DNA from: a virus
Length of the DNA: 26,369 nucleotides
Reading direction: 5' to 3' (one strand)
Virus record (IMG/VR): IMGVR_UViG_3300024346_004243
Location: 1 to 26,369 of that record
Both the position numbers and the translations under genes were made by a program. The notes beneath the pieces are model-generated. The model saw only the letters and a program-made list of their open reading frames with translations, was not told the DNA's origin and searched no databases. This document shows positions 1,609 to 26,285 of the stretch, one piece after another. Numbering within the stretch: position 1 is the first letter of the stretch; every line of letters begins with the position of its first letter.

Positions 1609-1641
1609 TTTGTTTTTGTTTAAGAAAAGTTTATAAAATTG

Positions 1642-1731
1642 CGGGGAGGAAGAGATTCGGACTCTCGATTGAATGTTAAGTCCAATAGCAGCTTCGGAGG
1701 CTGTCGGTTTAAACCACTCACCCACCTCCCC
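1642..1731 (-). tRNA. Class II tRNA, Ser-like body; formal anticodon CCG
   Basis: The minus strand folds into a full cloverleaf. The acceptor pairs GGGGAGG (1731-1725) with CCTCCCC (1649-1643). The D arm pairs GGT with ACC around GAGTGGTTTAA. The anticodon arm pairs CAGC with GCTG around the loop CTCCGAA. The long variable arm pairs ATTGGA with TTCAAT. The T arm pairs GAGAG with CTCTT around TCCGAAT. The long variable arm, TG at 8-9 and discriminator G at 1642 are tRNA-Ser traits. With a standard 7-nt loop the anticodon is CCG (1697-1695), which would read the Arg codon CGG; a one-base shift gives CGA (Ser). The lowest anticodon-stem pair is an A-C mismatch. No CCA is encoded. It shares a promoter and probably a transcript with the downstream outer-membrane protein. 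Confidence 0.85.
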
Positions 1732-7128: not shown

Positions 7129-7141
7129 ATTTTAATTAGTT

Positions 7142-8248: not shown

Positions 8249-8256
8249 ATCTTATA

Positions 8257-8285
8257 AATATAAATTTTATGTTCTCCAACCGCAA
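8257..8285 (-). promoter_or_regulatory. Weak promoter candidate TTGCGG-N17-TATATT
   Basis: On the minus strand TATATT (8262-8257) lies just before the paralog 2 start, and TTGCGG (8285-8280) is placed exactly 17 nt upstream, matching the spacing of the three stronger sites. The -35 box overlaps the end of the paralog 3 reading frame, where TTGCGG also encodes part of the conserved CGW ending, so coding constraint could explain it. Confidence 0.3.
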
Positions 8286-9406: not shown

Positions 9407-9413
9407 ATTATAT

Positions 9414-9442
9414 AATATACGGATTTTATCTTACAACTACAA
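9414..9442 (-). promoter_or_regulatory. Weak promoter candidate TTGTAG-N17-TATATT
   Basis: Minus-strand TATATT (9419-9414) lies just before the paralog 3 start, with TTGTAG (9442-9437) 17 nt upstream inside the last codons of the fibre gene. The -10 box and spacing match the stronger promoters. The -35 box shares only its TTG with them. Confidence 0.3.
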
Positions 9443-12400: not shown

Positions 12401-13856
12401 TTATAACTTGAACACTTCCCGATATAACCGTTTCTGTGTTAAGTTTATTTTTAATTGTTGTGTCAATAGAACTAGTAAATGTATTTAAACTACTTGTTGA
12501 TGTTTCAATACTTGTTAATTTACCATTCTGAGTATCATTAGTGGAACTAAAAGACGAAGATAAACTTCCAATACTTGAGCTTAATCCACTTGTTGTTGTT
12601 GCAACACTAGAACTTAACCCACTAGTTGTTGTTGCAATTGATGAGGATAAAGAATCAACACTAGAACTCAAAGAACCAATGCTAGATGATAATCCACTTG
12701 TTGTGGTGGCAACTGAACTAGATAATGAACCTATACTTGTAGACACACTTGAGCTAAACGTGGAATATCCTGTTGTTCCTGTTATTAAAACTTGAACGCT
12801 TCCAGTTATAACTGCTTCCGTATTAAGTTTATTTTTAATTGTATTATCGATGGAACTAGTAAATGAATTCAAACTACTCGTTGCAGACTCGATTGATGTT
12901 AACCGACTATTTTGTGTTGAGTTGGTTGAATCGTTTGAACTTGTATATGATTGAAATGTTGTTTCATCCAATTTTCCTGTTCCAATTGCTTGACCATTCA
13001 ATGTAATTGAACCTGTGATATCAACGGAACCGGTCACCACTAAGGACCCACTTGTTCTTTGAATATTTGTAAAGTTATTTGACCCGGTTGTGGCAAGTGC
13101 AGTTGTATCTACGTTAATGAGACCAATACTAGATTGACCATGTATAAAATCCGAATATACTGTTATAGCATTACCCATCCCAACGTGATGGTCACACCAA
13201 TAATAGAATGTTGTGGCTGTGGCATCGGTAACATCAACTTCAACATAAAAAGGGTCGGAGTTGGTTGTTATTCCAGTGGTATATATTGTACCTCCATTGT
13301 GTTCCCCTTCGCTAGTTAAAGAAAAAAGTAATGGGTGTACGTTATTGTTATTAAAATAAAATCTATATTTGAATCCCTTAATGAAGGATAACCTTGGAGC
13401 TCTAACTCCGTTGATGAAATATTTCCCTCCCCCATCTGTAAGAGTAATATCAACAATGTTGTTACTACCTAAGTTTACTTTATTAAGTTTTAATGTCCCC
13501 GTAATTTCGGTATTTGAGTTAATTCTTAAGCCGTTTGCTGAAGAAATGGATGCTGTGGCAACCCCATCAGCAATCCGTGTTAAATTGAGCCCGGTAACTC
13601 CACTGGCCGGAATATTGTATAAACCACCGCCATCACCCTTAAACGATCCAGTAAACGCTCCGGTAGTATAAGACCCCGTAAATGTCTGGAAACTAGAGGT
13701 TAATGTGTATTTTGGGGCCTCGGATGCGCTTATCGCATTATCGGTTGTTCCAGATACAGTCCCACGAATGGTTCCAAGTACTGTTAAATCACCCGAAATT
13801 TCTCCCGAACCAGATACTGATAGGGAGCCCGATATGTGTGGATCAAATATATTCAT
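9426..13856 (-). CDS. Long tail-fibre-like protein with cupredoxin-like module and fibre C-terminal domain
   Basis: The 1476 residues are dominated by Ser, Thr and Gly. Domains in order: an ISGSLSVSGS tag (7-17); a cupredoxin-like module (about 148-236); Ser/Thr repeats with heptad-like spacing (about 300-580); two copies of an ELTGSNLTV...SLLWD..NDYW module (582-669 and 742-828); twin SSFHVGTTSISLGR modules (968-980 and 1088-1101); a knob-like domain ending AWRTVIHSGN (1206-1215); a GGTAATDATTARTNLGL fibre repeat (1233-1249); and a C-terminal VTHSLGTKDVAVFVYDS domain (1426-1442) common at phage fibre ends. Function: trimeric virion fibre for host attachment, inferred from this composition. 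No SD motif precedes the start. It heads the adhesin array and lies next to the sulfotransferase/oxygenase island. Confidence 0.85.
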   Translation of the reverse strand: MNIFDPHISGSLSVSGSGEISGDLTVLGTIRGTVSGTTDNAISASEAPKYTLTSSFQTFTGSYTTGAFTGSFKGDGGGLYNIPASGVTGLNLTRIADGVATASISSANGLRINSNTEITGTLKLNKVNLGSNNIVDITLTDGGGKYFINGVRAPRLSFIKGFKYRFYFNNNNVHPLLFSLTSEGEHNGGTIYTTGITTNSDPFYVEVDVTDATATTFYYWCDHHVGMGNAITVYSDFIHGQSSIGLINVDTTALATTGSNNFTNIQRTSGSLVVTGSVDITGSITLNGQAIGTGKLDETTFQSYTSSNDSTNSTQNSRLTSIESATSSLNSFTSSIDNTIKNKLNTEAVITGSVQVLITGTTGYSTFSSSVSTSIGSLSSSVATTTSGLSSSIGSLSSSVDSLSSSIATTTSGLSSSVATTTSGLSSSIGSLSSSFSSTNDTQNGKLTSIETSTSSLNTFTSSIDTTIKNKLNTETVISGSVQVIITGTTGYSTFSSSISTSVGLLSSSVATTTSGLSSSIGSLSSSFSSTSDAQNNKITSIETSTSSLNSYTSSNITNINAIHTSTGSLNTFSSSILGSIELTGSNLTVKGDLLVKGTTTQIDSTTVNIGDNIIQLNGTGATNAGIVVRDATAPNTISGSLLWDTTNDYWKAGIVGSEEKIILNTEYSTFSTSIDSRATSLQTSTSSLNTYTSSNNTNISAIHTSTGSLNTFTSSANTKFGVIETSTSSLNTFTSSLLTAIELTGSNLTVRGNFLVKGTTTNVNTTTLDVDNNLINLNGNGASFAGIRVKDTTGPNLISGSLLWDATNDYWIAGQLGSEQRLVRETEFNNAVTRVGNVETSTGSLNSFTSSINTTIKTKLNTEGVLSGSIQVNHNTTTNYVANEHINHTAVSITAGSGLTGGGDISTTRTINVGAGNGITVNADDIAIDTSSATFTTGVKTKLNTEGVISGSAQVTGLSNAQLTNSSFHVGTTSISLGRTSASQTLTGISIDGTSAYATQWGTSAGYANFSSTAISSGVGWVLGTTGNGYYAPVSLASVSSLLNLSGTNTGDETLARVNALAITTVGTITSGTWNGTAIGNAYLANSSFHVGTTSISLGRASASQTLTGVSIDGNAATVTNATFYRQFTVRDDRSDGGNYNLSGRATGLYAIESSGSNGPGSGYLSLIHVANGTDVAFQIAGGYTSDNMYFRGTSALQSGTGYSAWRTVIHSGNIGSQTVSNVSGTVAIANGGTAATDATTARTNLGLAIGTNVLAYRTFGTAANSATGDFATAAQGTTADAALARSGGTMTGNLLFSNKGINMKRDSGANTGISWYSTSYSAWCDYMSPAATTGCGPNGNITAPAGTYVTSWGLRRFIEDNAGFGWTWESGTSTQVTPTIKAELRASDGLFSVAGAMYSAGSVVKTVANSSYSTSFSSVSSVTVTHSLGTKDVAVFVYDSSDNMFWPSSIVTTSTSVVTITFSSSRSGRVVVVR
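11373..11636 (-). repeat. Fibre module copy 2 (ELTGSNLTV...NDYW)
   Basis: Encodes fibre residues about 741-828. ELTGSNLTVRGNFLVKGTTT, a NLINLNGNGA segment, SGSLLWDATNDYW and a GSEQRLV end align with copy 1 at 11850-12116, with substitutions throughout. This is an internal duplication of an about 88-residue structural unit. Confidence 0.8.
11850..12116 (-). repeat. Fibre module copy 1 (ELTGSNLTV...NDYW)
   Basis: Encodes fibre residues about 581-669: ELTGSNLTVKGDLLVKGTTT, IIQLNGTGATNAG, SGSLLWDTTNDYW and GSEEKII. It is the partner of the module at 11373-11636. The SLLWD..NDYW motif resembles short segments found in many phage fibres near a W-containing turn. Confidence 0.8.
12265..12329. repeat. 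65-nt near-identical direct repeat, copy 1
   Basis: This stretch is almost identical to 12541-12605, with differences at about three bases. It encodes the SLSSS/TTTSGLSSS part of the fibre. DNA-level identity beyond what protein similarity needs suggests a recent duplication or slippage. Confidence 0.8.
12541..12605. repeat. 65-nt near-identical direct repeat, copy 2
   Basis: Second copy of the repeat at 12265-12329, in the same orientation and reading frame. Further shorter copies of its end (the TTTSGLSSS-coding stretch) follow within 12590-12720, so this part of the fibre gene may change length by recombination. Confidence 0.8.
13149..13415 (-). other. Cupredoxin-like domain within the fibre
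   Basis: Fibre residues about 148-236 start with RAPRLSFIKGFKYRF, as in the strand before the first ligand of small blue copper proteins. They contain NVHPLLFSL (His174) and then FYYWCDHHVGMG with Cys221, His224 and Met227. His, Cys, His and Met are the four type 1 copper ligands, and C-x2-H-x2-M matches amicyanin spacing. Copper binding is inferred. The fold could also be kept as a structural scaffold. Confidence 0.65.
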
Positions 13857-13938: not shown

Positions 13939-14598
13939 TTAGATGATTTTTTTATTGGTCACATCTATTCTAACTCTTCTATTTGGGGATAGTATATATT
14001 CTTCGTAATGGGTTTCGATTAATTCTAACCTCAAGTATTCAAATAAGTCGTTTATAACACCCCTATCATGCTTTTCAAATATGTCTTCATAGTAAAATAA
14101 CGGGTATTTTTTATTTTGTGAAAGGTTATGTAGTATTTCACTAGATTCATTATATCTTTTAATCATTGTTTGAATATATGATTGTTCTATTTTTCTAACA
14201 TCATATATTTTCGGGGTATGCCAGCTAATCCCTCTTTCTTTACTCCACCTTTCATTTATGGTAAAACTTTCTGCCTGATAAGTTTTATTTTTCCTATCTA
14301 ATATTACTATTTTATCAAAAAATGTGTCACACCATTCAAAATACTCGTGTACACTGTTAAAGGTTTTTGTAGGGTATTCGTCATATCCCACTATTAATAG
14401 GTTTTTTACTAATATATTATCATGACTTAATAATGGTTCCGTTGTTTGACAATCAAATTCATCGAAATAATCCTTATAGTTAGAATCGTTATATGGTTCA
14501 ATGAACATTTTATAATTTGATAATTTTATATGAGAATCAATAAATTTAACCAAGGACGTTGACCCGCTTCTTGGGGTAGCTAATATTAAAATTTTCAT
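13939..14598 (-). CDS. Sulfotransferase-like P-loop protein
   Basis: The 219-residue protein starts ILILATPRSGSTSLVKF; TPRSGST at residues 8-14 is the 5'-phosphosulfate-binding loop of the sulfotransferase fold. A later KIVILDRKNK segment near residues 95-104 lies where the 3'-phosphate-binding strand normally is, although the usual R...S pair is not obvious. Length is short but within range for bacterial and phage members. Such enzymes transfer sulfate from PAPS to sugars, peptides or lipids; the acceptor is unknown. The ATG overlaps the stop of the upstream 2OG oxygenase by 4 nt (ATGA), so the two are coupled, and an APS kinase that could feed PAPS lies about 6 kb upstream. A plain P-loop kinase is the alternative. 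Confidence 0.65.
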   Translation of the reverse strand: MKILILATPRSGSTSLVKFIDSHIKLSNYKMFIEPYNDSNYKDYFDEFDCQTTEPLLSHDNILVKNLLIVGYDEYPTKTFNSVHEYFEWCDTFFDKIVILDRKNKTYQAESFTINERWSKERGISWHTPKIYDVRKIEQSYIQTMIKRYNESSEILHNLSQNKKYPLFYYEDIFEKHDRGVINDLFEYLRLELIETHYEEYILSPNRRVRIDVTNKKII

Positions 14599-15113
14599 AA
14601 AAGACTCCCAGGTTGCATTCTAAATTTATGTATAAACATTGCAATTGCCCATCTTTCTCCACTTAAAATTGGTGTGACTTGATGTGGTGTTTGGGATTGG
14701 TATATACATACATTACCTATCTTTTTGTCAATTGTTATAGGTTTATCATTTTCATCAAATACTAAATAATCCCCTCCCTTAAAATCATCATTTAAAACAA
14801 TACCAACATTCCATTCTTTTATCGGGGTTCCTGTATCAATGTGTTTACCGAATTCATCTCCTGGTATATAATGATGCAGATTTAAATTTGTTGGTCTGAA
14901 AAAAATGTGTAAATTCATTTCTTTTTCAAAATAGTTACACATTCTATTAATAACCCAATCTATATCTGGGGTACAATTTAATGCATAAAATTTGTACCTA
15001 AAATTGTCAAATTCGTCCCATCTACCATTATTACCTAATAGTGGGTATTTATTTTTTAAATTTATAATAGATTCGCATTCATCTTCGGTAAATAAAATAG
15101 ATTGAATTAACAT
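14595..15113 (-). CDS. 2OG-Fe(II) oxygenase (prolyl 4-hydroxylase-like)
   Basis: This 172-residue protein has the facial triad of 2-oxoglutarate/Fe(II) dioxygenases: GKHIDTGT gives His91 and Asp93, TPHQVTP gives His144, and GERWAIAMFI gives Arg154 for the 2OG carboxylate. LHHYIPGDEFGKH and GGDYLVFDEND between them follow the prolyl-4-hydroxylase subgroup (P4Hc). These enzymes hydroxylate protein side chains or small molecules using O2 and 2OG in the cytoplasm. Length matches the minimal catalytic core. It shares an ATGA overlap with the downstream sulfotransferase-like gene, so hydroxylation followed by sulfation of one substrate is an attractive but untested idea. Confidence 0.85.
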   Translation of the reverse strand: MLIQSILFTEDECESIINLKNKYPLLGNNGRWDEFDNFRYKFYALNCTPDIDWVINRMCNYFEKEMNLHIFFRPTNLNLHHYIPGDEFGKHIDTGTPIKEWNVGIVLNDDFKGGDYLVFDENDKPITIDKKIGNVCIYQSQTPHQVTPILSGERWAIAMFIHKFRMQPGSLL

Positions 15114-15140
15114 TTATAACCATTAATTTTTTGTTTATTA

Positions 15141-15659
15141 CTATATGATTTTTAACTTATTGTATTTTATTTGTGATTTTTTAAAAAAAATCAAAACAAC
15201 GTTTCTAATTCCTTCTTTTATTTCATAAAGTTCATGTTCATGTATTGATTCAAAAAAATAACAATTGCCAATGATTTTTTCGAAATTAAATGTTTCAGTA
15301 TTATTAATAACAAATTCACCTCCCTCAAAATCATCATTTAATAATAAACCTAATCCATATAATCTATTGTGAATACTATCAGTATGTCTATTAAATTTAT
15401 CCCCTTTAACATATGTTTGTAAATAGAACTCATTACTGTCCGCATTTTCCCAATCAATGGAAACGTCTAATTCTTTACTTACCCACAATATAAATCTATC
15501 TAATATCCACCTATCCTCAACATCGTTCATATTTTTATATGTGTAACTTATACTTGACTTGTGTACTTGATTTCCATCAATAGGTTTAGTCGCATACTTT
15601 TTTAAAATTAAATCACATTCTTTTTTTGAAAAAAGTATTTCTTGTTTCGGTGCCGACAT
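15141..15659 (-). CDS. 2OG-Fe(II) oxygenase-like protein
   Basis: A second small oxygenase of 172 residues. YVKGDKFNRHTDS supplies His92 and Asp94, GLLLNDDFEGGEF is the conserved strand-turn of the P4Hc group, and IHEHELYEIKEGIRNVV supplies the distal His (140 or 142) and Arg152. Overall it resembles the oxygenase at 14595-15113 in size and order, so the two are likely distant paralogs, but the N-terminal 80 residues have little in common by eye. It stands between that oxygenase (27-nt gap) and the sulfotransferase-like gene upstream (1-nt gap). The substrate is unknown. Confidence 0.8.
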   Translation of the reverse strand: MSAPKQEILFSKKECDLILKKYATKPIDGNQVHKSSISYTYKNMNDVEDRWILDRFILWVSKELDVSIDWENADSNEFYLQTYVKGDKFNRHTDSIHNRLYGLGLLLNDDFEGGEFVINNTETFNFEKIIGNCYFFESIHEHELYEIKEGIRNVVLIFFKKSQIKYNKLKII

Positions 15660-15660
15660 A

Positions 15661-16392
15661 TTATAAAATAGATTTTGTTCTTTTAATTGCTCCGTCTATG
15701 TATTTGTCCACAAATTCTATCAATTCGGGAGTTTTTGTTATCGCACAGTAATCTATTTTTGTTTGATTAACGTGTGATAATTTGAAATCAACATTAAGTT
15801 TTTCAGACATATAATCTTCAAATTCCTCTATTCTGTCAAAATGAAATTCCTTAACTTTTACTGTATCGTTTAGTATCCAATTATATTGTGATATAAATGT
15901 CAATATATGAAGTGAAAAACGATTAACAAACTTTTTATCTTTTTTCAATTCTTCGGGAAACTCTAACTCATCAAGTAGTTTAAGAAAAATTTTTTTTACT
16001 ATATCATCATCCCCGTATGCATTAATAAAATCGTTATAGTTATTTTTTATAAAACTAATTAAAAATTCATTGTTTTTATTTTTAATTTTAATTAATGTGG
16101 AAGAATCTAATAACTCGGAACATTGTGCTATAAAAAATTTCCACGCTGAAATAAATCTATCTGTTGAATTTCTTAGTATGCAAACGTAATCTAAATTAGT
16201 GTCAAATGTCCTAATTAAAGATTGTACTTTTGTGTGAATGTGTTTATTTTTTTGGCCCTCTTCCTTCATTGTATTTTCCCATAAAGTATTGGAATATTTT
16301 AAATCGAAATCATATTCCTTACAGGTGAATTCTACCGACCATGATGCGTTTTTTGGTATTGGGATGAACGCAATTTTATTATTTATAACCAT
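15661..16392 (-). CDS. Sulfotransferase family 2-like protein
   Basis: Residues 9-20 (FIPIPKNASWSV) match the 5'-phosphosulfate loop of the Sulfotransfer_2 group, usually IPKNAGTS; here the Gly-Thr pair is Ser-Trp. Residues 70-85 (VCILRNSTDRFISAWK) match the 3'-phosphate strand, with Arg74, Arg79 and Ser82 placed as in RDPVERFLSAY-type motifs. Both halves of the PAPS site are therefore visible, which makes this the clearer of the two sulfotransferases. Length is 243 residues. Relatives sulfate glycans. The changed P-loop residues could alter donor binding. The ORF sits between two 2OG oxygenases, and TATAAATA lies one base before its ATG, too close to act as an ordinary promoter. Confidence 0.75.
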   Translation of the reverse strand: MVINNKIAFIPIPKNASWSVEFTCKEYDFDLKYSNTLWENTMKEEGQKNKHIHTKVQSLIRTFDTNLDYVCILRNSTDRFISAWKFFIAQCSELLDSSTLIKIKNKNNEFLISFIKNNYNDFINAYGDDDIVKKIFLKLLDELEFPEELKKDKKFVNRFSLHILTFISQYNWILNDTVKVKEFHFDRIEEFEDYMSEKLNVDFKLSHVNQTKIDYCAITKTPELIEFVDKYIDGAIKRTKSIL

Positions 16393-16396
16393 TTAT

Positions 16397-16960
16397 TTAT
16401 ATAAAACTTTTTATATTTTTAACAACTTCTTTTATTTGGAAACCTAATGTTAGAGTTATCCTAGGTTTTTCACCTATTACGGGGATGCTACCGTGTTTAA
16501 CTTTACCAGCAACACATCTCCAAGCCATTCTTTCCTTTAATTCGTTTATTTTACCGTTATATATAGAATGTCCACCTTCTTCTGGATAAGATAGTATAAT
16601 GTTATATCTAACATGTGTATACCCATCTAAATTCATGTCAGTATGTGTATGGATTGATCCACCTTCTTTATTGATACCAATAGCGTCTTCAAAAATTGGG
16701 TCTGATATCCAGTCGTTAATTTTTTCTATCTCAACTACCCTATCTTTTATTTTTTTTACTAAGTCTAATGGGGAATTTGGTATCCTTGTTAGTACACCGA
16801 TTTGTCTAGACCCGTATGGAGCATTTATGGTATGACTATTTGTTCTGTTTATTTCAAATAGATGTGAATTATTATTTGCCCAAAGTAAAAGAATTTCTTG
16901 TTCTTCATTTGTTATAAATTCCTCATAACCATAGGTATCGTTCAACTCTATGTGTTTCAT
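16397..16960 (-). CDS. 2OG-Fe(II) oxygenase-like protein (HTHTD type)
   Basis: This 187-residue protein contains HTHTDMN (His106, Asp108 as the likely metal pair), VKHGSIP (His156) and EKPRITLTLGF (Arg167), with EEGGHSIYNGK between them. This order is the 2OG-Fe(II) oxygenase fingerprint. The double HTH before Asp leaves His104 as an alternative ligand. It belongs to a different subgroup from the two smaller oxygenases downstream, and its HTHTD signature recurs in the gene at 18699-19337. It ends 4 nt before the sulfotransferase start, consistent with one operon. It is a candidate hydroxylase of protein or nucleobase substrates; the substrate is not identifiable. Confidence 0.8.
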   Translation of the reverse strand: MKHIELNDTYGYEEFITNEEQEILLLWANNNSHLFEINRTNSHTINAPYGSRQIGVLTRIPNSPLDLVKKIKDRVVEIEKINDWISDPIFEDAIGINKEGGSIHTHTDMNLDGYTHVRYNIILSYPEEGGHSIYNGKINELKERMAWRCVAGKVKHGSIPVIGEKPRITLTLGFQIKEVVKNIKSFI

Positions 16961-16976
16961 AAATTAATTTTACAAT

Positions 16977-17096
16977 TTACTGATTTGTAACGTCAGTATA
17001 AATAAGGGCGGCAACCTCTTGCATTATAGTTGCGACATTCGTGTTAGTTGTTGTACTTGTCAGTACAACTTCTGGAAATATTATTTTTGGTTTCAT
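16977..17096 (-). CDS. Small ORF, 39 codons, Thr-rich peptide
   Basis: Between the oxygenase and the ATP-grasp/Hint gene the minus strand has an ATG at 17096 and TAA at 16977. The product is 39 residues with a basic start (MKPKIIFPEVV), a Thr/Ser/Asn run (TSTTTNTN, about residues 13-20) and a hydrophobic end (AALIYTDVTNQ). It fills the gap almost exactly and is preceded by an A-rich leader like those of the other genes, which supports real translation. No homology was recognised. Because it lies beside an ATP-grasp-like protein and modifying enzymes it might be a modified peptide precursor, but a chance ORF or a small regulatory protein is equally possible. Confidence 0.45.
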   Translation of the reverse strand: MKPKIIFPEVVLTSTTTNTNVATIMQEVAALIYTDVTNQ

Positions 17097-17097
17097 A

Positions 17098-17129
17098 TTT
17101 TTATCTTTTTATCTTTTTATCTTTTTATC
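17098..17129. repeat. Four perfect tandem copies of an 8-nt unit
   Basis: TTTTTATC (GATAAAAA on the coding strand) is repeated four times, with a fifth imperfect copy running into the stop codon of the ATP-grasp/Hint gene. It forms the leader of the 39-codon ORF. As a simple-sequence tract it could change copy number by slippage and so alter spacing in front of that ORF. Confidence 0.9.
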
Positions 17130-17132
17130 TTT

Positions 17133-18665
17133 TTATATTTTTTCTCTTCGTCCGCCACAATAAGAACAATTATTACATGACCACCAACCACATCCGCCAC
17201 CAAAGCCAATACACCAACTTAAACATGCGTTATGTTGTATAAATGCTAAACCTAAAGTTTCATCTAAAACTGGTAGGAATACATCACTTTGTTCAACATT
17301 TATGTCATATATCATTCTATTTTCATAAACTATCTCTAAATTTGTTATTTTAGATTTAGTTAATGTATCATTAATATAATCATAAAACACAATAGAATCA
17401 CCTATTCTAAATGTATTTGTCAACGAATATGTGGTAAGGAGTGTGTCAAACTCTTCAACAATCATGTTACTACTAGGTAAATCTTCATATATTAAACCAT
17501 TTTCTAAAGTAACTCTAATCATAAAACATTCTTTTTGAATGCCACTTATCTCTTCAACAGTTGTTGATGACATTGTAAATCCTGTAAGGTCATCTGTAAA
17601 ATTACCACTATTAACGCCAGGCATAAAATTAGGGACACCATCAATTAATTCATCGTCAATGGGTACCCATGGAAGTAATAATGTTTTTAATGTACTATTC
17701 TCCATTATTTGACTTGGTAATACTAAATTACCTTCACCATTTAATATTTTTGTATCGTTGTCTAAAATGTAAACGTTACCAAGTATACTTGGGGATTTAC
17801 TCAACCATAACACTCTAGATGATTGTAACATCAATCCATTTGAATCATATTCTGTTGACCATTCGTTATGTTTAACTTGTGCGGTCATCATATAAGACCC
17901 CAAATGTAAGCAACTAAGTGTTCCACCATATAGTATATCTAAACTCCTAATTACACCCATTTTTTCATTTACAATATTGTCAGGATGAGTATGATATTCT
18001 TCTATATATTCTGATTCAGTTAATGAATCTTTTAATGATTGTAAGTTTTCAAGTGATGTGATTTTATACAATTTTGGGTACGCAACAAGATTTGTATTAG
18101 GATATCTTGGTTTAACAATGTAATTTGGTGTATCACCATTTGTAATATGTAAATTAATTAATTGGTCAATATTTAAATTGGTATTAATACTAGATGAATA
18201 AAATATGTTTGGTGAGTATGGTTTATTTTGAATCAATCTATGAAAATTAACTTTATCCTTGGTATAATCTTCATCCACAACCGCAGTGGTATCATATGAT
18301 GTTCTTATAATTAATGTGTTATCACCATCCTCGATATATGGAACCGTTATTGAATTATTTGCCACTTTATGAAAGGTAAATGAACCTCCTAAATCACCTA
18401 TAATTTCTTCCATTTTATCTTTAATAGTAACATCATTAAGATTCGTACTAAATGCACCATCTTTTTCACTATAAATCATATTTCCCTCAGTTACAATAAG
18501 ATGTAAGCTATTTATGGAATTATCTATCAAAAATTGATTAAAAGAGCCCCAATCTAAATTTGGTACAATTTTATTATGTATATCAACATTCGTATTTGTT
18601 TCAATTATTCTTAGATTTCCATTTGAATCTTTTAATAGATCCGTACCGATTATTACTGCTTTCAT
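17133..18665 (-). CDS. ATP-grasp-like protein with C-terminal degenerate Hint domain and Cys-rich tail
   Basis: The 510-residue protein has three parts. Residues about 1-300 look ATP-grasp-like: RIIETNTNVD (19-28) resembles a metal-binding ExN motif, YIVKPR (182-187) an ATP-binding Lys strand, and IEEYHTH and GVIRSLDILYGG (221-248) later strands; the order is unusual. Residues about 370-479 look like a Hint (intein/hedgehog) domain: VTLENGLIYEDLPSSN, FRIGDSIVFYD, IVYENRMIYDINVEQSD and a terminal Gln-His-Asn at 477-479. The N-terminal Cys and the block B His appear absent. Residues 480-510 form a tail with six cysteines. Ligase activity and C-terminal self-cleavage are hypotheses. It lies between two oxygenase genes. 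Confidence 0.6.
   Translation of the reverse strand: MKAVIIGTDLLKDSNGNLRIIETNTNVDIHNKIVPNLDWGSFNQFLIDNSINSLHLIVTEGNMIYSEKDGAFSTNLNDVTIKDKMEEIIGDLGGSFTFHKVANNSITVPYIEDGDNTLIIRTSYDTTAVVDEDYTKDKVNFHRLIQNKPYSPNIFYSSSINTNLNIDQLINLHITNGDTPNYIVKPRYPNTNLVAYPKLYKITSLENLQSLKDSLTESEYIEEYHTHPDNIVNEKMGVIRSLDILYGGTLSCLHLGSYMMTAQVKHNEWSTEYDSNGLMLQSSRVLWLSKSPSILGNVYILDNDTKILNGEGNLVLPSQIMENSTLKTLLLPWVPIDDELIDGVPNFMPGVNSGNFTDDLTGFTMSSTTVEEISGIQKECFMIRVTLENGLIYEDLPSSNMIVEEFDTLLTTYSLTNTFRIGDSIVFYDYINDTLTKSKITNLEIVYENRMIYDINVEQSDVFLPVLDETLGLAFIQHNACLSWCIGFGGGCGWWSCNNCSYCGGRREKI
17136..17228 (-). other. Cys/Gly/Trp-rich 31-residue tail after Hint His-Asn
   Basis: Residues 480-510 of the ATP-grasp/Hint protein follow His478-Asn479 directly. 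Cysteines are at 481, 485, 492, 497, 500 and 503, with GFGGGCGWW, a CNNCSYC core and a basic RREK end. It is unlike the rest of the protein. It could be a released peptide, a metal site or a substrate for the nearby radical SAM enzymes. Confidence 0.7.
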
Positions 18666-18698
18666 TATTTTTATTGTTTATATATAAATATCCTTATT

Positions 18699-19337
18699 TT
18701 AAATTATCGATGAGGTCTTCTTAACGAATTCTAGACCAACATTTCCCGCTAAAACTATCCTATCTACTCTCGAATTAGGTGCATAGTTAGGGGAATGGGG
18801 CATATCTCCTTTCATGATTATTAACTCATCTTCCTCTGGTTTAACTCGATATTCAACACCCTTTTTATTTTTAAAATATAAAACCCCGTCATCACCATTC
18901 ATAACATCAGGCATTTGAATGTAATAAACAAAGGTAAAGTTGGGGTAAAATGACTTTATTTTTTTATTAATATCCGTGTGAGTGTGGTATCTATCGACAT
19001 TTCTCCAAAATTCCGTTTGTACGGGATTTTTATGTCTAATTCTATTTATCCATGTTTCCACGTTAATTTTATTAAAAGGAATCTTTTCATCCTCATATAT
19101 TTTTTTACACTCATCAATCCCTATTTGAGAAATTTCGTCCATTTTATTTGTTACATGCAACTCACCTGATGAGTTTATATTGTCTCTCCAATCTATAACA
19201 GCAAACCCATCTTGTTTAGACATGGGTTGAGACTTTATTATGTCATTTGCCTCTTCCAAAAGTGAGGTTTTGTATTTTACCAAATTTAATTTTTTTTTCC
19301 ATATAAATGTAGTTTCGTCAAAGTATATTTTTTTCAT
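18699..19337 (-). CDS. 2OG-Fe(II) oxygenase-like protein (HTHTD type)
   Basis: A fourth candidate oxygenase, 212 residues. RYHTHTDINKK gives His120 and Asp122, GDMPHSPNYAPNSRVDRIVL gives His181 and Arg190 or Arg193, and GDDGVLYFKNKKG fills the segment in between. The HTHTD signature matches the oxygenase at 16397-16960, although the N-terminal regions differ. FVYYIQMPDVMNGDDG resembles the FxxYLN-like strand of phage 2OG oxygenases that act on proteins or tRNA. Its ATG overlaps the stop of the methyltransferase gene at 19334 by 4 nt (ATGA), so it is probably co-translated with a GAMT/RMT2-like methyltransferase. It ends 33 nt before the ATP-grasp/Hint gene. The substrate is unknown. Confidence 0.75.
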   Translation of the reverse strand: MKKIYFDETTFIWKKKLNLVKYKTSLLEEANDIIKSQPMSKQDGFAVIDWRDNINSSGELHVTNKMDEISQIGIDECKKIYEDEKIPFNKINVETWINRIRHKNPVQTEFWRNVDRYHTHTDINKKIKSFYPNFTFVYYIQMPDVMNGDDGVLYFKNKKGVEYRVKPEEDELIIMKGDMPHSPNYAPNSRVDRIVLAGNVGLEFVKKTSSII

Positions 19338-19942
19338 AATAAAACTTTAGTCTCTATTTTTTTATAAAAATGGGTTCCATTAAATGTTGTATATTTTAAC
19401 TCAAATTCACCATTTCTAAAATAATCATTTTTATATGGTAATGTTTCATATTCTACATCTGTTAATTTATGTCTAACCGCGTTAAATATATAATCATCAA
19501 CAGGAGTATCAAAAAAACCAACTATAGTCCCTTCTTCACAATTTGGTTTTACGTAATCTAAAAATTTAGAAATATTTGGGTCCCTATGTGTGTCATGTAA
19601 AATACCGTCAAATTTTGATTGTAGTGTTGGTAGGATGTCAACCCAATCGCCTAAAATTATTTTCACGTTTGGTTTATTTTCTGCCCATAGTAATGCGTTT
19701 TTATACATCTCAGGATGAATTTCAATTATTGTATGCGATGTTACATTTAGATTGGATTGAACAGCGTCGGCTGATAAATGCATACCAAACCCGATTTCAA
19801 GTATGTCTCCACCGTTTTTTGTTACGATCTCCGCCAATTTAGACATTAGGGATTTTTCTCCTTTATGCATTACCCAATCTTTTTTTAAATTTGTAATTCT
19901 AATCGCATCGTCAGATATTGTTACTTTTTCTGTTCCCTTCAT
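19334..19942 (-). CDS. SAM methyltransferase of the guanidinoacetate/RMT2 arginine type
   Basis: This 202-residue class I methyltransferase shows ILEIGFGMHLSADAVQ (residues 47-62), HTIIEIHPEMY (70-80), KIILGDWVDILPTL (94-107) and FDGILHDTHRD (111-121). This series matches GAMT and the RMT2 protein-arginine methyltransferase group, whose signature is EVGFG...IIE....WxD..P.L...FDGILYDT. Those enzymes methylate guanidino groups (guanidinoacetate or the delta-nitrogen of arginine). In a phage operon the acceptor could be an arginine side chain or a guanidino compound; this is inference. It is followed by a coupled 2OG oxygenase and preceded by the DUF2061 gene 13 nt away. Motif spacing looks complete. 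Confidence 0.75.
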   Translation of the reverse strand: MKGTEKVTISDDAIRITNLKKDWVMHKGEKSLMSKLAEIVTKNGGDILEIGFGMHLSADAVQSNLNVTSHTIIEIHPEMYKNALLWAENKPNVKIILGDWVDILPTLQSKFDGILHDTHRDPNISKFLDYVKPNCEEGTIVGFFDTPVDDYIFNAVRHKLTDVEYETLPYKNDYFRNGEFELKYTTFNGTHFYKKIETKVLL

Positions 19943-19955
19943 TTATAAAATATTT

Positions 19956-20165
19956 TTATTTTTTTAATCCATATTTAATCCATCTATACCACACTCTTTC
20001 GTGAATATAATATTGAATCGGTTTATATACTAACTCTGCTACACCAAAAGCGGCACCAACCTTGATTGACCCACTTATCCACCACATTATCACAAACCCA
20101 ATTAAGGTACTAATAACTCGATAGGATATGGTTTTCGCAATATGTCTTTTACGTTCAACTATCAT
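19956..20165 (-). CDS. DUF2061 small inner-membrane protein
   Basis: Sixty-nine residues with a basic N-terminus (ERKRHIAKTISYRV), a hydrophobic helix (STLIGFVIMWWISG), a second amphipathic or membrane helix (VGAAFGVAELVYKPIQYYIHERVW) and a basic end. This order, with TISYRV..T and the HERVW segment, matches the DUF2061 family of two-helix membrane proteins. In bacterial and phage genomes the family is often near sulfate-activation genes. Here it overlaps the nucleotidyltransferase by one base (TAATG) and follows the APS kinase. It may be a sulfate- or nucleotide-related accessory protein; no mechanism can be read from the sequence. Confidence 0.8.
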   Translation of the reverse strand: MIVERKRHIAKTISYRVISTLIGFVIMWWISGSIKVGAAFGVAELVYKPIQYYIHERVWYRWIKYGLKK

Positions 20166-20545
20166 TATCCTTTTGTTTGATCATATTTAATCTCACCATC
20201 AGGTGTCATGTGACCGGTTCTAATGGCTGTTCCGCTAATCGTTGCTATCTCAGCTGGCGGTTCGTGGTATATTACATCATAACCAACACCTCTACCATAA
20301 TTAATGCTCTCAATATCAGGAATAATTGATATGTTAATTCTTTGTGAATTTTCTCTAAAGAAAGGTTCTTCACTAAGATCCATCATGACTTGCTGTGCGG
20401 TCTTAGGGTTATTTTCATCCGTTGGCACGTTCCTAATTGCAACCCACACATCTTTTCCTTTATCTAATTGTTGGTTAATAAGCCATTCGTGACCCTTATG
20501 CCAATTTTGCCATCTACCAACATACATTGCGTATTTTTTACTCAT
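20165..20545 (-). CDS. HxGH nucleotidyltransferase (cytidylyltransferase-like)
   Basis: This 126-residue protein has YVGRWQNWHKGH (residues 8-19), where His16 and His19 form the HxGH signature of nucleotidylyl transferases, and ISGTAIR (103-109), the matching ISxTxxR signature. Length fits a single Rossmann-like domain. Family members adenylylate or cytidylylate small substrates (nicotinamide mononucleotide, glycerol phosphate, pantetheine phosphate); ATP sulfurylase shares the same fold and motifs. It is wedged between APS kinase (4-nt overlap upstream) and DUF2061 (1-nt overlap downstream). A role in making APS from ATP and sulfate would complete the pathway, but the sequence is much shorter than known ATP sulfurylases, so NMN or other adenylylation is an equally good reading. 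Confidence 0.75.
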   Translation of the reverse strand: MSKKYAMYVGRWQNWHKGHEWLINQQLDKGKDVWVAIRNVPTDENNPKTAQQVMMDLSEEPFFRENSQRINISIIPDIESINYGRGVGYDVIYHEPPAEIATISGTAIRTGHMTPDGEIKYDQTKG

Positions 20546-20976
20546 AATGATAATTTTTTTAACAGTTCATAATATGAATCTGTTTCGTTTTTTATTGTTG
20601 TGTCTATATCTATAAAATTTTCTAATGGCGGTTCATATTCCTCAACGTGGAATTGATTCCTACCTCTATCTTCTGTGGTGTGAACATAAATCTCAACAAC
20701 CGATGTGCTGAACTTAAACGCCTCTCTTTGATCTCTATACGGTGAAACTAGGGATACAATAACATTGTGTCCTTTACTATGCATGAATTGCGCAATGTAT
20801 TGTGCTCTTTGAATATTTAATCTTCTTCCTGTAATGGAATAGTCTTTATTCTTAAAGATGTCTCTTAGATCATCCCCATCAATGTGAGTAACCTCGTTTT
20901 GAGGGAAATATTCCACCAAGTATTTTGCTAGGGTTGTTTTACCTGCTCCGGGTTGTCCTGTTAACCAGTATATCAT
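20542..20976 (-). CDS. cysC: Adenylylsulfate (APS) kinase
   Basis: This 144-residue protein phosphorylates APS at the 3' position to give PAPS, the donor for sulfotransferases. GQPGAGKTT (residues 7-15) is the Walker A loop, HIDGDDLRD (31-39) the APS-contacting strand, GRRLNIQRAQYIAQF the family's RxxNIxR segment, and VSLVSPYRDQRE the substrate loop with the conserved SPYR. The protein is shorter than bacterial CysC (about 200 residues), mainly at the C-terminus, but the catalytic segments are present. A strong promoter (20983-21011) starts here, and the nucleotidyltransferase overlaps its stop by 4 nt. The -10 box ends six bases before the ATG, so the message may be leaderless. Confidence 0.85.
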   Translation of the reverse strand: MIYWLTGQPGAGKTTLAKYLVEYFPQNEVTHIDGDDLRDIFKNKDYSITGRRLNIQRAQYIAQFMHSKGHNVIVSLVSPYRDQREAFKFSTSVVEIYVHTTEDRGRNQFHVEEYEPPLENFIDIDTTIKNETDSYYELLKKLSL

Positions 20977-20982
20977 AATGAT

Positions 20983-21011
20983 AATATACCTAAAATAAGT
21001 TGAAAAGTCAA
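20983..21011 (-). promoter_or_regulatory. Sigma70-like promoter TTGACT-N17-TATATT
   Basis: Minus strand TTGACT (21011-21006), a 17-nt spacer and TATATT (20988-20983) fill the 38-nt gap between the radical SAM stop (21015) and the cysC ATG (20976). Start would fall at about 20976-20977, at the start codon itself. The boxes are identical to those at 5987-6015, which makes chance less likely. Confidence 0.7.
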
Positions 21012-21014
21012 TTT

Positions 21015-22238
21015 TTAATCAATAAAAATATCACCTAACCATGGGCATATTTCCTTATAATCGGTTTTATTAATTTCGTCAAATCTCCTTAAGGTTTCCG
21101 GTAGTGAAATAGTAACATATTTCTTCTTATCTAATAGGTGGCTATAAACTTCCTCATCCTCAGTGTTTCTTAAATATTTAACAAATTCAATCAACGTATA
21201 TCTACAAAGTGATGTTAAATTGTTTATGTTGTTTTCATAAAGTTCTATTAACGCTTGTTTCATGTCACCCTTACAAATTCCAGGTGCAAAATAAAAAGGT
21301 TGAGTCACGGTATGAAACCTAATGTGATCTGAATGGAGGTAATTTTCTTCAACAAACTTTATGAAATCAAAAGAATGGTACATGTTTATTGTTGAAATAG
21401 TATAATCAATAGAAACTTTGAAATTGTCGTTGGTTTCTTTAAACTTAATTAGCGTTTCCAGATTTTTAAAGAATTTTTCAGAATTAAATCCTGGTCTTTG
21501 ATATTCACCAATTTTACCATACCCATCACATGAACAAGAGATGTCTACAGTTTTAAAACGTTTAAGTTTATCAAGTATGTCAATACCTTTGTATGTTAGT
21601 GTGGATAAGTTTGTATTAATTAATATATAAACATTTTTAGCCTGTTCGTCACTGAATCTATCTAACAAGGTAAATGTTGTTGGTGTTATAAATGGTTCAC
21701 CACCAGCTAAATAAACTTTACGAATAGAATCAATATTTTCTTCTGAGAACTTATCAAGAGCGTCGTCACCTGCTGTTAAGTACTTGGTATTGATGGTATC
21801 ATATTCTGGTTGATTTTGAACATAACCCCAATACTCAAACCAGGTTGATGATGACCCATGAAAACACATTCTACATTTAAAGTTACAATGATTAGAAAGT
21901 CTCAAATCTGTGTAAACAATTTTGTTTACACTATAGTCTTCATTATATAGTGATGGGTCCGCTATTTCTTCTCTAAACTCAATGTTACTATGCTCTTTGT
22001 GTCTATTTTTATAAACAAAACATTCCGCACATTCAGATGGTGCAATATTAGATAACATCTCTTTTCTAATGCGTTTATATGGTTCACTATTAATTGCTTC
22101 ATCAACAGAATTGAAATCCTTGAAATGAATATTCTCTTTAAATGGAGAAGCCACACAACAAGGTGATAGTGTGCCAGATGCCCCAACATAAATTGAACCA
22201 AAGGGTAAATAACAAAATTTCTCTGAGATGGTATTCAT
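21015..22238 (-). CDS. N-terminal twitch radical SAM protein, copy 1
   Basis: 407 residues. The N-terminus holds FCYLPFGSIYVGASG, PCC (Cys9, Cys27, Cys28) and ECAECF (Cys70, Cys73), the cysteine set of an N-terminal SPASM/twitch domain. CNFKCRMC (118-125) is the CxxxCxxC radical SAM motif, preceded by YTDLRLSN, and LAGGEPF is the SAM-contacting GGE motif. The family is annotated in many marine phages as twitch-domain radical SAM protein, function unknown. Usual SPASM domains lie at the C-terminus, so the order is reversed. Its stop is followed by the cysC promoter, and its ATG overlaps the stop of copy 2 by one base (TAATG), so the four copies form one operon. Peptide or sugar modification is the likely role. 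Confidence 0.85.
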   Translation of the reverse strand: MNTISEKFCYLPFGSIYVGASGTLSPCCVASPFKENIHFKDFNSVDEAINSEPYKRIRKEMLSNIAPSECAECFVYKNRHKEHSNIEFREEIADPSLYNEDYSVNKIVYTDLRLSNHCNFKCRMCFHGSSSTWFEYWGYVQNQPEYDTINTKYLTAGDDALDKFSEENIDSIRKVYLAGGEPFITPTTFTLLDRFSDEQAKNVYILINTNLSTLTYKGIDILDKLKRFKTVDISCSCDGYGKIGEYQRPGFNSEKFFKNLETLIKFKETNDNFKVSIDYTISTINMYHSFDFIKFVEENYLHSDHIRFHTVTQPFYFAPGICKGDMKQALIELYENNINNLTSLCRYTLIEFVKYLRNTEDEEVYSHLLDKKKYVTISLPETLRRFDEINKTDYKEICPWLGDIFID

Positions 22239-23536
22239 TACAATAATTTTACATTATCATCTTTTGGTAATTCAATGATAACATTTGGATCGATAAAATC
22301 TCTAAACTCAGTAAACACAGAAAAGAAATCATCACCTCTGAATGTGTCAACCATGTCTGTCATTTTTAAAAACTTTTGGAACATTTCTTCGTCTCTTTCT
22401 TGATTTAACAAGTCTATTACAAATTCAAATTGTCCTATATCTCGTTGTGCTTCACTGTTATCCGCTATGTTATTTTTTATCCAAATTATAAGGTTATTAT
22501 ACAATATTCTAAGAACCTCTTTATGTCTTTCAGGTAGCATTTTTATCTGAAGGTGTTCTGGATGTGTCAATAAATTAATATGAATTTTACCAGGAAGTAA
22601 GTAGCCATTTTCTATCCAATTTTTATATAAATCAATTATGGTATAGCTATTCATTATGTTAATTGTTGGTACAATTCCAAAAAAAGTATCTGGTAGTTCT
22701 CTCAAAAGTGTTTTTCTATTCTCAACTATTTCAGACCATTTGGACCCGCTTCTAAGATATTGACCTCTCTCTTCAAACCCATCTATACTCGCTGTTATCT
22801 CAACAGCTTTGAACTTCTTCCACATCTCAATTATATTGTAATCTTTATAATATAATTTTGTGAAATTGGTTGTAACCCACACTGTTATATTTTTAGCATA
22901 GTCATTGTCTATGCAGTATTGTAATATTTGATAATGTTTATCTTGTGTTAATGGTTCGCCACCAGCAAAAAATAATGACTTAACATGCTTTAATTGGCTT
23001 AAAATAAAATTAAACTCATCATCATCAACCGACATACTATATGGTTGACCATAATCTTTAAAATTATTGAAGCCTAACGCTTTATACTCTTTATATAATG
23101 ATGATGAAAAACCGGGATTACAAATCCTACATTTTAAATTACATTTATTATCAAAACGTAGATCTAAGTGTTTAAATTGTATAATTTTTAATGAAAAATC
23201 TTCATTTGTGTTATCCACAATGTTTTCTATTTCATCTTCAAACTGTTTGTTTAAATTAAATCTGTAACTATCAACTTGGCTCTTCCCTTTTGAAACCTCT
23301 TCTCTATACCAGCAAATTTGACACTCATTTATCTTCTCGCCATTCCACAATCTTTTTCTAATATCCTTTGCAACATCAGAATTATACATTTCATTTAATG
23401 GAACACCTTGTTTAAGTTCTCCGAAAACTCGTTCTTGTTTATATAAACAACAAGGAACAACATTTCCAAATGTACTTAAATGCGATGCAATCCATGGAGC
23501 AACACAAAAGGTTTCTTTATTATAATTTTTTTCCAT
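22238..23536 (-). CDS. N-terminal twitch radical SAM protein, copy 2
   Basis: 432 residues with the same layout as copy 1: FCVAPWIASHLSTFG and PCC (Cys11, Cys29, Cys30), ECQICW (Cys72, Cys75), CNLKCRIC (132-139), FFAGGEPLTQD, and later ASIDGFEERGQYLRSG, the strand-turn segment present in the other copies. The CAPWIxxHxxxxGxxxPCC start matches the consensus of the family closely. It begins directly after the stop of copy 3 (0-nt gap) and overlaps copy 1 by one base. Divergence between copies is high outside the motifs, which argues for different substrates or successive steps rather than recent gene duplication. The reaction is unknown. Confidence 0.85.
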   Translation of the reverse strand: MEKNYNKETFCVAPWIASHLSTFGNVVPCCLYKQERVFGELKQGVPLNEMYNSDVAKDIRKRLWNGEKINECQICWYREEVSKGKSQVDSYRFNLNKQFEDEIENIVDNTNEDFSLKIIQFKHLDLRFDNKCNLKCRICNPGFSSSLYKEYKALGFNNFKDYGQPYSMSVDDDEFNFILSQLKHVKSLFFAGGEPLTQDKHYQILQYCIDNDYAKNITVWVTTNFTKLYYKDYNIIEMWKKFKAVEITASIDGFEERGQYLRSGSKWSEIVENRKTLLRELPDTFFGIVPTINIMNSYTIIDLYKNWIENGYLLPGKIHINLLTHPEHLQIKMLPERHKEVLRILYNNLIIWIKNNIADNSEAQRDIGQFEFVIDLLNQERDEEMFQKFLKMTDMVDTFRGDDFFSVFTEFRDFIDPNVIIELPKDDNVKLL

Positions 23537-25009: not shown

Positions 25010-25010
25010 C

Positions 25011-26285
25011 TTATATTAATTTTGTTGTTTTTGTAATATTATATATTTCTTCTAAATCCGCAAATGTATCAGCAAAAGATTCATTCCTTAAAATGTCTAA
25101 TGCTAATGTTTGTCTCTTAAATTCTTGCCAATCGCCTTGTGTACCCTCGACAGGTAATTTTAATGTGTTTATAACTTTATGTGCTTGCCTCATTACATCC
25201 CATCTATATTGTTTTTCAGAATCATCTATTGTTGTATCATCATTAATTTGTAAAATCCTAAGATTATATTCGGATTCAAGTTTTTCTAAAATAAGTTTTT
25301 TACACTTCTCTGGCATATACCCAATGTGTAAATGTCTAGGGTTGTAAACAAAAGCTATCATTAATTTTAAATGATTCTCAATAACAAAATCAACCATCTC
25401 AAAAACATAAAGAACATTTAGCATTGATATAGTACAACACACCTCAAAGATTATTTTATGGTCTGGAATTAATTTAACTTTATTTTGCCAAATATTAATA
25501 TTTTCACTAACCACATCCCATTTACCAAAATGTCTTAAATAGTTGAATCTTTTACCAACACCATCAATACTAAAACCAATTCTACACTGTTCAAATGAGC
25601 TTAAAATATCAATATATTTCTCATTTATAATTGTGCCGTTTGTATTAAAACTCATTTGTTGTGTTTTAGAAAATCCTAACTTAACGGACATTTCTAAAAT
25701 CTCCCATTGCTTTTTCATCAACATTGGTTCACCACCATATATGTCTAAACTTCTAACTTCAGGAAGTATGCTCATTAATTCAGCCCAAACAATACTATTG
25801 TCTCTAAATGCTTTTGAATATTTATCTACATAATAGTCTAATCTTTCTTCGGTCACATCGGTTTCTGTTACATGATGAAAGTCTTTCCATTTTGATGATG
25901 CAGATATATGACATATTCTACATGCGAGATTACATGTGTTACCAAGATTTAATTCTAAAAAAAATAAATCAGAATCTTTTCTTTCTGGATATAATTCAAG
26001 AGTAGTCTTATATGTTTCATTATCTCTTTCTCGTTTGCTAACAAATCCAGCATCTTCTGCTGACCAACAAACAACACAAGCCGGATGCCTAATATCATTT
26101 TTAAAATCATCTAACATTTTCATTCTAGTTGGGCTTTTTAACCCTTCTTCAATTGAATGTGTGCTAGCTAACATTTCATCACCATTTTCATCTTTAAATG
26201 GGTTATTAAACGTGTGACAACACGCAAAATAGCCCCCAGATGTTGCTATTCTAAAACCGTTTGTTAGATTTTTACACTCAATCAT
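25011..26285 (-). CDS. N-terminal twitch radical SAM protein, copy 4
   Basis: 424 residues. The opening MIECKNLTNGFRI lacks the usual aromatic before the first Cys (Cys4), but SGGYFACCHTF (Cys22, Cys23) and ACVVCW (Cys70, Cys73) fit the twitch domain. TCNLACRIC (Cys118, 122, 125) is the radical SAM motif, DIYGGEPMLMK the GGE motif, and FSIDGVGKRFNYLRHFG the shared strand-turn. Its ATG shares one base with the stop of a gene that continues off the right edge, so the operon extends beyond the window. Four adjacent members of one family at 21015-26285 are unusual and suggest sequential modification or several acceptors. Confidence 0.85.
   Translation of the reverse strand: MIECKNLTNGFRIATSGGYFACCHTFNNPFKDENGDEMLASTHSIEEGLKSPTRMKMLDDFKNDIRHPACVVCWSAEDAGFVSKRERDNETYKTTLELYPERKDSDLFFLELNLGNTCNLACRICHISASSKWKDFHHVTETDVTEERLDYYVDKYSKAFRDNSIVWAELMSILPEVRSLDIYGGEPMLMKKQWEILEMSVKLGFSKTQQMSFNTNGTIINEKYIDILSSFEQCRIGFSIDGVGKRFNYLRHFGKWDVVSENINIWQNKVKLIPDHKIIFEVCCTISMLNVLYVFEMVDFVIENHLKLMIAFVYNPRHLHIGYMPEKCKKLILEKLESEYNLRILQINDDTTIDDSEKQYRWDVMRQAHKVINTLKLPVEGTQGDWQEFKRQTLALDILRNESFADTFADLEEIYNITKTTKLI

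Follow-up and report, generated by a model that had tools for sequence, protein, structure and literature searches.

A phage carrier protein with an ATP-grasp-like domain, a Hint domain and a putatively released cysteine-rich peptide

Does a phage protein that ends in a Hint domain followed by a short cysteine-rich tail serve as a carrier on which a peptide is made, modified and released? This question is raised by a 26-kb virus record (IMG/VR IMGVR_UViG_3300024346_004243), the whole of which, 26,369 nucleotides, is referred to as the window. A sequence-only reading of its letters had proposed an ATP-grasp-like enzyme fused to a Hint domain and a tail that might be a cargo peptide. The gene concerned, designated the carrier gene, is a complete open reading frame with an ATG start and lies within a same-strand gene island that is flanked by radical SAM-like genes (21015-26285) on one side and by a set of fibre genes (6019-13856) on the other. 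Its minus-strand orientation and the conserved small open reading frame beside it were missing from that reading. The features of the carrier locus are the following:

17133..18665, minus strand: carrier protein, 510 residues, with ATP-grasp-like domain, Hint domain and six-cysteine peptide; 102 distinct homologues
17790..18665, minus strand: ATP-grasp-like domain, residues 1-292, apparently circularly permuted (motif residues; weak RimK/CofF matches)
17229..17771, minus strand: Hint domain, residues 299-479 (AlphaFold2 model, Foldseek PDB matches and conservation)
17229..17234, minus strand: His478-Asn479, where C-side cleavage is predicted; conserved without exception in the family
17136..17228, minus strand: six-cysteine, Gly/Trp-rich peptide, residues 480-510, predicted released product (cysteine conservation)
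16977..17096, minus strand: small open reading frame of 39 residues, conserved partner, MKPKIIFPEVVLTSTTTNTNVATIMQEVAALIYTDVTNQ (36-52 residues in 91/91 loci)

The carrier family and its two folds

The carrier family was gathered from IMG/VR by repeated scans with an alignment that grew each time; the scans gave up to 218 relatives each, of which at most 80 were taken per scan, and two more were queried with the homologue L015 and with a DNA pattern, respectively. This resulted in at least 102 distinct complete carrier proteins, all from uncultivated phage contigs, some of them 180-290 kb in length. Many contigs with carrier loci are fragments, and neighbour counts are given over 91 unique loci. 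Among 50,697 phage records no relatives were found (one chance match, E 0.6), and 84,980 prokaryote genomes, scanned twice, held no host or prophage copies. Thus, the carrier represents a family of uncultivated phages. The protein matched no family in Pfam, NCBIfam or the PDB sequence families, its single PHROG match was at chance level (E 0.28), and PDB sequence searches with the protein and with family profiles yielded nothing or chance matches. Likewise, the family is not described in the open-access literature searched, and a single chain that combines a ligase with a release domain and a peptide was found neither in these papers nor in the family libraries searched.

The N-terminal domain carries the Mg/ATP residues of ATP-grasp enzymes (E-x-N site, Lys, Q/E-E-Y/F) in a permuted order: the Mg-site motif GTDLLKDSNGNLRIIETNTN is located at the very N-terminus and is followed by a Lys strand (K185), a QEF/EEY strand (222-224) and an Arg strand (R240). 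Within this domain, D9, E22, N24, R121, D125, D131, K185, R240 and D243 are invariant and E223 nearly so. The motifs VDIL..G.LV.EVN, the K strand and the QEY[I] strand of RimK/LysX/CofF ligases recur in the carrier; however, the carrier has the Mg-site first, and its HMM matches stay below the cut-offs (RimK E 0.013-0.057, CofF E 0.017, rimK_fam E 0.12). Alignment of the native and permuted N-terminal profiles to a four-sequence RimK alignment by hhalign was not significant, the permuted profile met only chance matches in the PDB, permuted segments did not match RimK systematically better, and a RimK search in five large phage records gave nothing. From the motifs and weak matches, which are not statistically secure, the first 292 residues are likely to form a circularly permuted ATP-grasp domain. 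The assignment in the sequence-only reading accordingly stands as probable from its motif residues, with matches too weak to prove it statistically.

An AlphaFold2 model of the carrier computed from 74 sequences reached a mean pLDDT of 83 and about 90 over most of the Hint domain; a model from only 14 close relatives was set aside (pLDDT 42). In a Foldseek comparison with the PDB, the top 50 matches were all Hint proteins (inteins, BIL, hedgehog), headed by BIL2 of Tetrahymena (6y75, E 1.8e-7) and hedgehog (2.3e-7), with RecA, DnaB and RadA inteins among the further matches; the TM scores (target) of the best matches were mostly 0.66-0.78. According to the predicted structure, the carrier contains a Hint fold, as had been proposed, yet its extent differs from the residues 370-479 given before. 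A Hint domain limited to this range is ruled out by block A at 299-335, YILDNDTKILNGEGNLVLPSQI, and the modelled domain spans residues ~299-479, starting near residue 299, YILDNDTKILNGEG.

Among 74 representatives, only Asp461, His478 and Asn479 are fully invariant within the Hint domain (299-479). All 102 distinct complete homologues, even those at ~30% identity, have the C-terminal His-Asn, followed in every one by Cys at +2/+3. The domain lacks Cys1 and the block B His, as had been noticed from the letters: Tyr299/Ile300 replace the cysteine (family members have His, Ile, Val or Phe at position 300), and residues 396-399 read LPSS in place of T-x-x-H, with no conserved His. Asp461 also replaces the block F His, to whose position in the established intein motifs we take it to be aligned. 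At +1, the window protein has Ala480 and not a splicing nucleophile (Cys, Ser or Thr); across the family this residue varies (S39 G17 P16 A13 T6 and others). With Asp461, His478 and Asn479 as sole invariants and no Cys1 or block B His, the pattern is that of a Hint domain confined to Asn cyclisation on its C-side. It is therefore predicted from conservation that the first Hint is retained for this reaction only, with release of what follows, which agrees with the earlier view that splicing is unlikely and C-terminal release possible. Because +1 is commonly occupied by Ala, Gly or Pro and Asp stands in for the block F His, the rate of cyclisation is uncertain.

A comparable reaction is described for A-type BIL domains, which cut on the C-side through Asn without ligation or splicing (PMC7765530). 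The carrier shares with them the Hint fold and the invariant C-terminal His-Asn. Nevertheless, its first Hint lacks the intact N-side motifs (Cys1, block B His) that together with the His-Asn end characterize the A-type, and moreover it follows a ligase-like domain, ends in a cysteine-rich peptide and occurs on phage contigs only.

The cysteine peptide, the second Hint and the small partner

The window tail comprises 31 residues with six Cys and three Trp and, as pointed out before, is unlike the rest of the protein (Cys 21 vs 0.5%, Trp 8 vs 0.7%, Gly 13 vs 4.8%). Six cysteines are found in 93/102 homologues and 7-9 in the remainder, with one residue (rarely two) between the HN and the first of them in 102/102; His-Asn is missing from none of the homologues, and its conservation goes hand in hand with that of the tail cysteines. 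The refuting conditions of the sequence-only reading that lend themselves to computation were thus all examined, and none of them spoke against it. In single-Hint members, the tails abound in Cys, Gly, Trp, Tyr and Pro, measure 25-33 residues with one exception (L011) and, in 86/91, carry Lys among the final three positions. In L011, a stretch of ~70 residues past the tail (7534-7743, plus strand) is like the C-terminus of a virion structural protein (phrog_6121, E 1e-6) and by eye resembles an S74-type chaperone. A carrier-blind DNA pattern for HNxCWC.Wx.YCG matched only the carrier or contig-end fragments of it; a second pattern, in which the cysteines were spaced, found no locus and was probably badly specified. 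Where overall identity is 60-70%, tail positions other than Cys show 43% identity vs 64% in the other domains. The peptide exhibits a precursor-like conservation, with faster-changing positions between its cysteines, as for a ribosomal peptide that would be modified and later cleaved.

In six homologues (L280, L281, L286, L302, L303, L306), a second Hint domain directly follows the cysteine peptide. This domain is intact, with Cys1 (CFIG/CFVA and similar), T..HPF, mostly the block F His and VHN at its end, and it exceeds the Pfam cut-offs (PF14890 up to 52.7 bits, cut-off 35.8; PF07591 up to 57.7, cut-off 27.7). Its intact N-side motifs and HN end are those that characterize A-type BIL domains. 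From the Asn of the first Hint to Cys1 of the second, these members contain exactly six Cys in 23-32 residues. Since the intact domain comes straight after the peptide, the latter is bracketed by a predicted C-cleaving and a predicted N-cleaving site, which we consider the strongest evidence for the peptide being cut out. The cargo-peptide model of the sequence-only reading gains support from these six proteins, with its chemistry as a prediction.

For cargo flanked by Hint domains, a further precedent exists: BIL2 of Tetrahymena dispenses flanking ubiquitin-like cargo onto lysines (PMC8616854) and is thus a precedent for Hint-driven conjugation. The double-Hint members resemble the layout of these BUBL loci. 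In contrast, the carrier cargo is a six-Cys peptide of ~25-31 residues instead of a ubiquitin-like protein, and an ATP-grasp-like domain is added.

Directly downstream of the carrier gene (2-63 nt), an open reading frame of 36-52 residues is present in 91/91 unique loci, very divergent ones included. Differences at its three codon positions amount to 565/299/1096, and this excess at the third position identifies it as a coding sequence. The partner in the window has neither Cys nor Trp. Database searches with it gave no match apart from a weak one in PHROG (E 0.055). The window also has a tandem 8-bp repeat (ATAAAAAG, coding strand) at 17095-17143, between the genes of carrier and partner.

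The enzyme island and its common C-terminal tag

As the sequence-only reading had stated, the carrier gene sits among oxygenases, sulfotransferases and a methyltransferase and near radical SAM enzymes, several of which were named by eye, as were several of the neighbour families across loci. The genes of the island in the window are the following:

25011..26285, minus strand: radical SAM-like (by eye), C-terminal TKLI
22238..23536, minus strand: radical SAM-like (by eye), C-terminal VKLL
20542..20976, minus strand: APS-kinase-like (by eye); family tag 1/25, near the carrier in 25/91 loci
20165..20545, minus strand: small nucleotidyltransferase-like (by eye); family tag 0/30
19334..19942, minus strand: methyltransferase-like (by eye), tag ETKVLL; cluster c14, tag 13/13
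18699..19337, minus strand: 2OG oxygenase-like (2OGb), tag TSSII; cluster in 74/91 loci, tag 69/73
16397..16960, minus strand: oxygenase-like (by eye), tag IKSFI; cluster c31, tag 7/7; phrog_13746
15661..16392, minus strand: sulfotransferase-like (STa), tag TKSIL; phrog_3347 galactose-3-O-sulfotransferase, E 6e-6; tag 87/89
15141..15659, minus strand: 2OG oxygenase (2OGa family), C-terminal LKII; family tag 183/185
14595..15113, minus strand: 2OG oxygenase (2OGa family), C-terminal GSLL
13939..14598, minus strand: sulfotransferase-like (STb), C-terminal NKKII; family tag 80/82

The radical SAM-like genes form a run of four consecutive related genes of 407-490 residues (21015-26285, minus strand). 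The APS-kinase-like protein probably supplies the sulfotransferase cofactor. On its other side the island adjoins fibre genes, as it also does in a 198-kb relative. Three tandem paralogous proteins of ~370 residues (6019-9406, minus strand) with a common C-terminal GTSSGHCGWR lie beside the large fibre gene, and a tRNA-Arg (anticodon ccg) at 1641-1731 (minus strand) overlaps the start of a called open reading frame.

Across the 91 loci, the same families recur near the carrier: 2OG oxygenases in 88, with a second 2OG-like family in 74, two sulfotransferase-like clusters in 81 and 75, SGNH-like proteins (SGNH hydrolases) in 54, nucleotidyltransferases and radical SAM proteins in 31 each and APS kinases in 25. 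A tagged, zinc-ribbon-like protein of ~95 residues is usually found upstream of the carrier (80/91, e.g., L149:880-1164); none was seen in the island of the window. Tryptophan halogenases occur in 43/91 loci (PF04820, E 1.7e-85; e.g., L073:656-1894), the window island itself being without one. In the double-Hint phages L280, L281 and L306, the halogenase is longer and untagged. A correlation between the Trp content of the tail and the presence of a halogenase was not separable from phylogeny. Cyanophages and pelagiphages possess similar oxygenases and halogenases and have no carrier relative. Trp-halogenase genes (PF04820) in phages are also exemplified by VirX1 of cyanophage Syn10, a viral flavin-dependent halogenase; the halogenases of carrier loci differ in lying near a gene for a Trp-rich peptide and in their tag, which is absent from the checked homologues of cultured phages.

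This tag, -K-x-[ST]-[LI]-[LI] at the C-terminus with the consensus K-x-K-[ST]-L-I, is common to unrelated island enzymes in the window (13939-26285) and in the 91 loci. Its bearers are oxygenases and sulfotransferases, SGNH hydrolases and methyltransferases and, in loci other than that of the window, tryptophan halogenases. A C-terminal hydrophobic pair with final Leu/Ile ends 680/706 proteins of 15 enzyme clusters vs 3/257 in the carrier and 12 other clusters, figures that describe a two-peaked distribution and not a p value, as the clusters were sorted after the tag had been seen. A positional check in the 198-kb relative found the tag in 12/22 open reading frames of the 27-kb island region vs 10/154 elsewhere (p 2e-7). 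An artefact at the DNA level was ruled out, as the variation of synonymous Ser, Thr and Leu codons is close to background; ATA is in excess at the final codon, which fits ATGA overlaps. Judging from these codons, the tag is set at the protein level. Homologous oxygenases and halogenases of the few cultured cyanophages and pelagiphages checked lack it; therefore, tag and carrier go together. The APS kinase, nucleotidyltransferase and carbamoyltransferase-like families, which probably act on small cofactors, are also without the tag, a distribution in keeping with a docking signal for enzymes that would share one large substrate.

Proposed route, competing readings and meaning

The reading preferred here, with a probability of about 60%, is that enzymes dock on the carrier, modify its peptide and leave it to be released by Hint Asn cyclisation, in a RiPP-like system whose carrier, ligase and release domain form a single polypeptide. 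Carrier and partner, whose genes are observed, would be translated, and the tagged island enzymes would dock via their C-termini on the carrier or on the 39-residue partner. Cys, Trp, Tyr or Pro of the tail may then be modified by 2OG oxygenases, sulfotransferases, the methyltransferase and radical SAM enzymes, in other loci also by a tryptophan halogenase and an SGNH hydrolase; that the tail is their target is suggested more strongly by the common tag. Conservation predicts that Asn479, aided by His478 and Asp461, would cyclise and the Asn-Ala bond be cut, releasing a peptide that begins with Ala480. The predicted 31-residue product starts with ACLSWC and has a calculated average mass of 3374.9 Da in reduced form, or 6 Da less with three disulfides. 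Speculatively, the ATP-grasp domain could finally place an amide or ester bond on the peptide, cross-link it internally or ligate it to an acceptor. Candidate purposes are an antibacterial or anti-competitor agent, a host-surface agent or a decoration of the virion. Graspetide RiPP pathways likewise feature a small variable ribosomal peptide, an ATP-grasp-like enzyme and tailoring-type enzymes nearby; in the carrier, however, the peptide is fused to the ligase with Hint release domains before or after it, a separate precursor is lacking, and the system is phage-encoded. The graspetide synthetase families of Pfam and NCBIfam did not match the carrier.

A catalytically dead Hint with a purely structural His-Asn, whose cysteine tail is a metal-binding or disulfide knob shaping a virion or an enzyme, would account for the loss of Cys1, block B His and block F His together, for the odd +1 residues, for the virion-protein-like extension of L011 and for the adjacent fibre genes. 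Nevertheless, it is unlikely, as exactly Asp461, His478 and Asn479 stay invariant while most other Hint residues drift, six members have an intact second Hint that encloses the peptide from its far side, and the non-Cys tail positions change faster than the fold domains, which is not expected of a structural metal site. The fibre genes also bear on whether the island enzymes act on tail fibres, surface glycans or host molecules, with the carrier and its peptide as neighbours that have a separate task. The contact of island and fibre genes in the window and the 198-kb relative and the similar enzymes of cyanophages and pelagiphages that have no carrier speak for this reading; against it, the tag is found on island enzymes and is absent from the checked homologues of carrier-less cultured phages, and the neighbour families recur in up to 88/91 carrier loci, which leaves it doubtful.

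The constant position of the partner directly downstream of the carrier might alternatively indicate that the 39-residue protein is itself the substrate, a scaffold peptide extended by the ATP-grasp domain, with the cysteine tail as sensor or recruitment domain; indeed, RimK-type ATP-grasp ligases act on C-termini. Still, a partner devoid of Cys and Trp is a poor target for a tryptophan halogenase, and the second Hint bracketing the cysteine peptide would be left unexplained, so that this reading is improbable. A bolder form of peptide release is put forward as a tentative idea: one or two Hint domains would cut out the six-Cys peptide, a halogenase, oxygenases and sulfotransferases drawn in through the tag would decorate it, and the ATP-grasp domain or a thioester of the second Hint would join it to an acceptor such as the lysine-rich small partner, in a ubiquitin-like manner of dispensing. 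If this held true, it would offer a native substrate for the tryptophan halogenases of phages.

If the preferred reading of docking, modification and Asn-driven release is right, phages produce tailored peptides of their own and set them free from a single-chain carrier that unites ligase, release domain and peptide. The released peptide would then be a candidate for the native substrate of the tryptophan halogenases, 2OG oxygenases and sulfotransferases of phages. The occurrence of single-Hint and double-Hint variants makes the release step directly testable. Moreover, a common C-terminal tag on unrelated enzymes would represent a new way to assemble a biosynthetic team.
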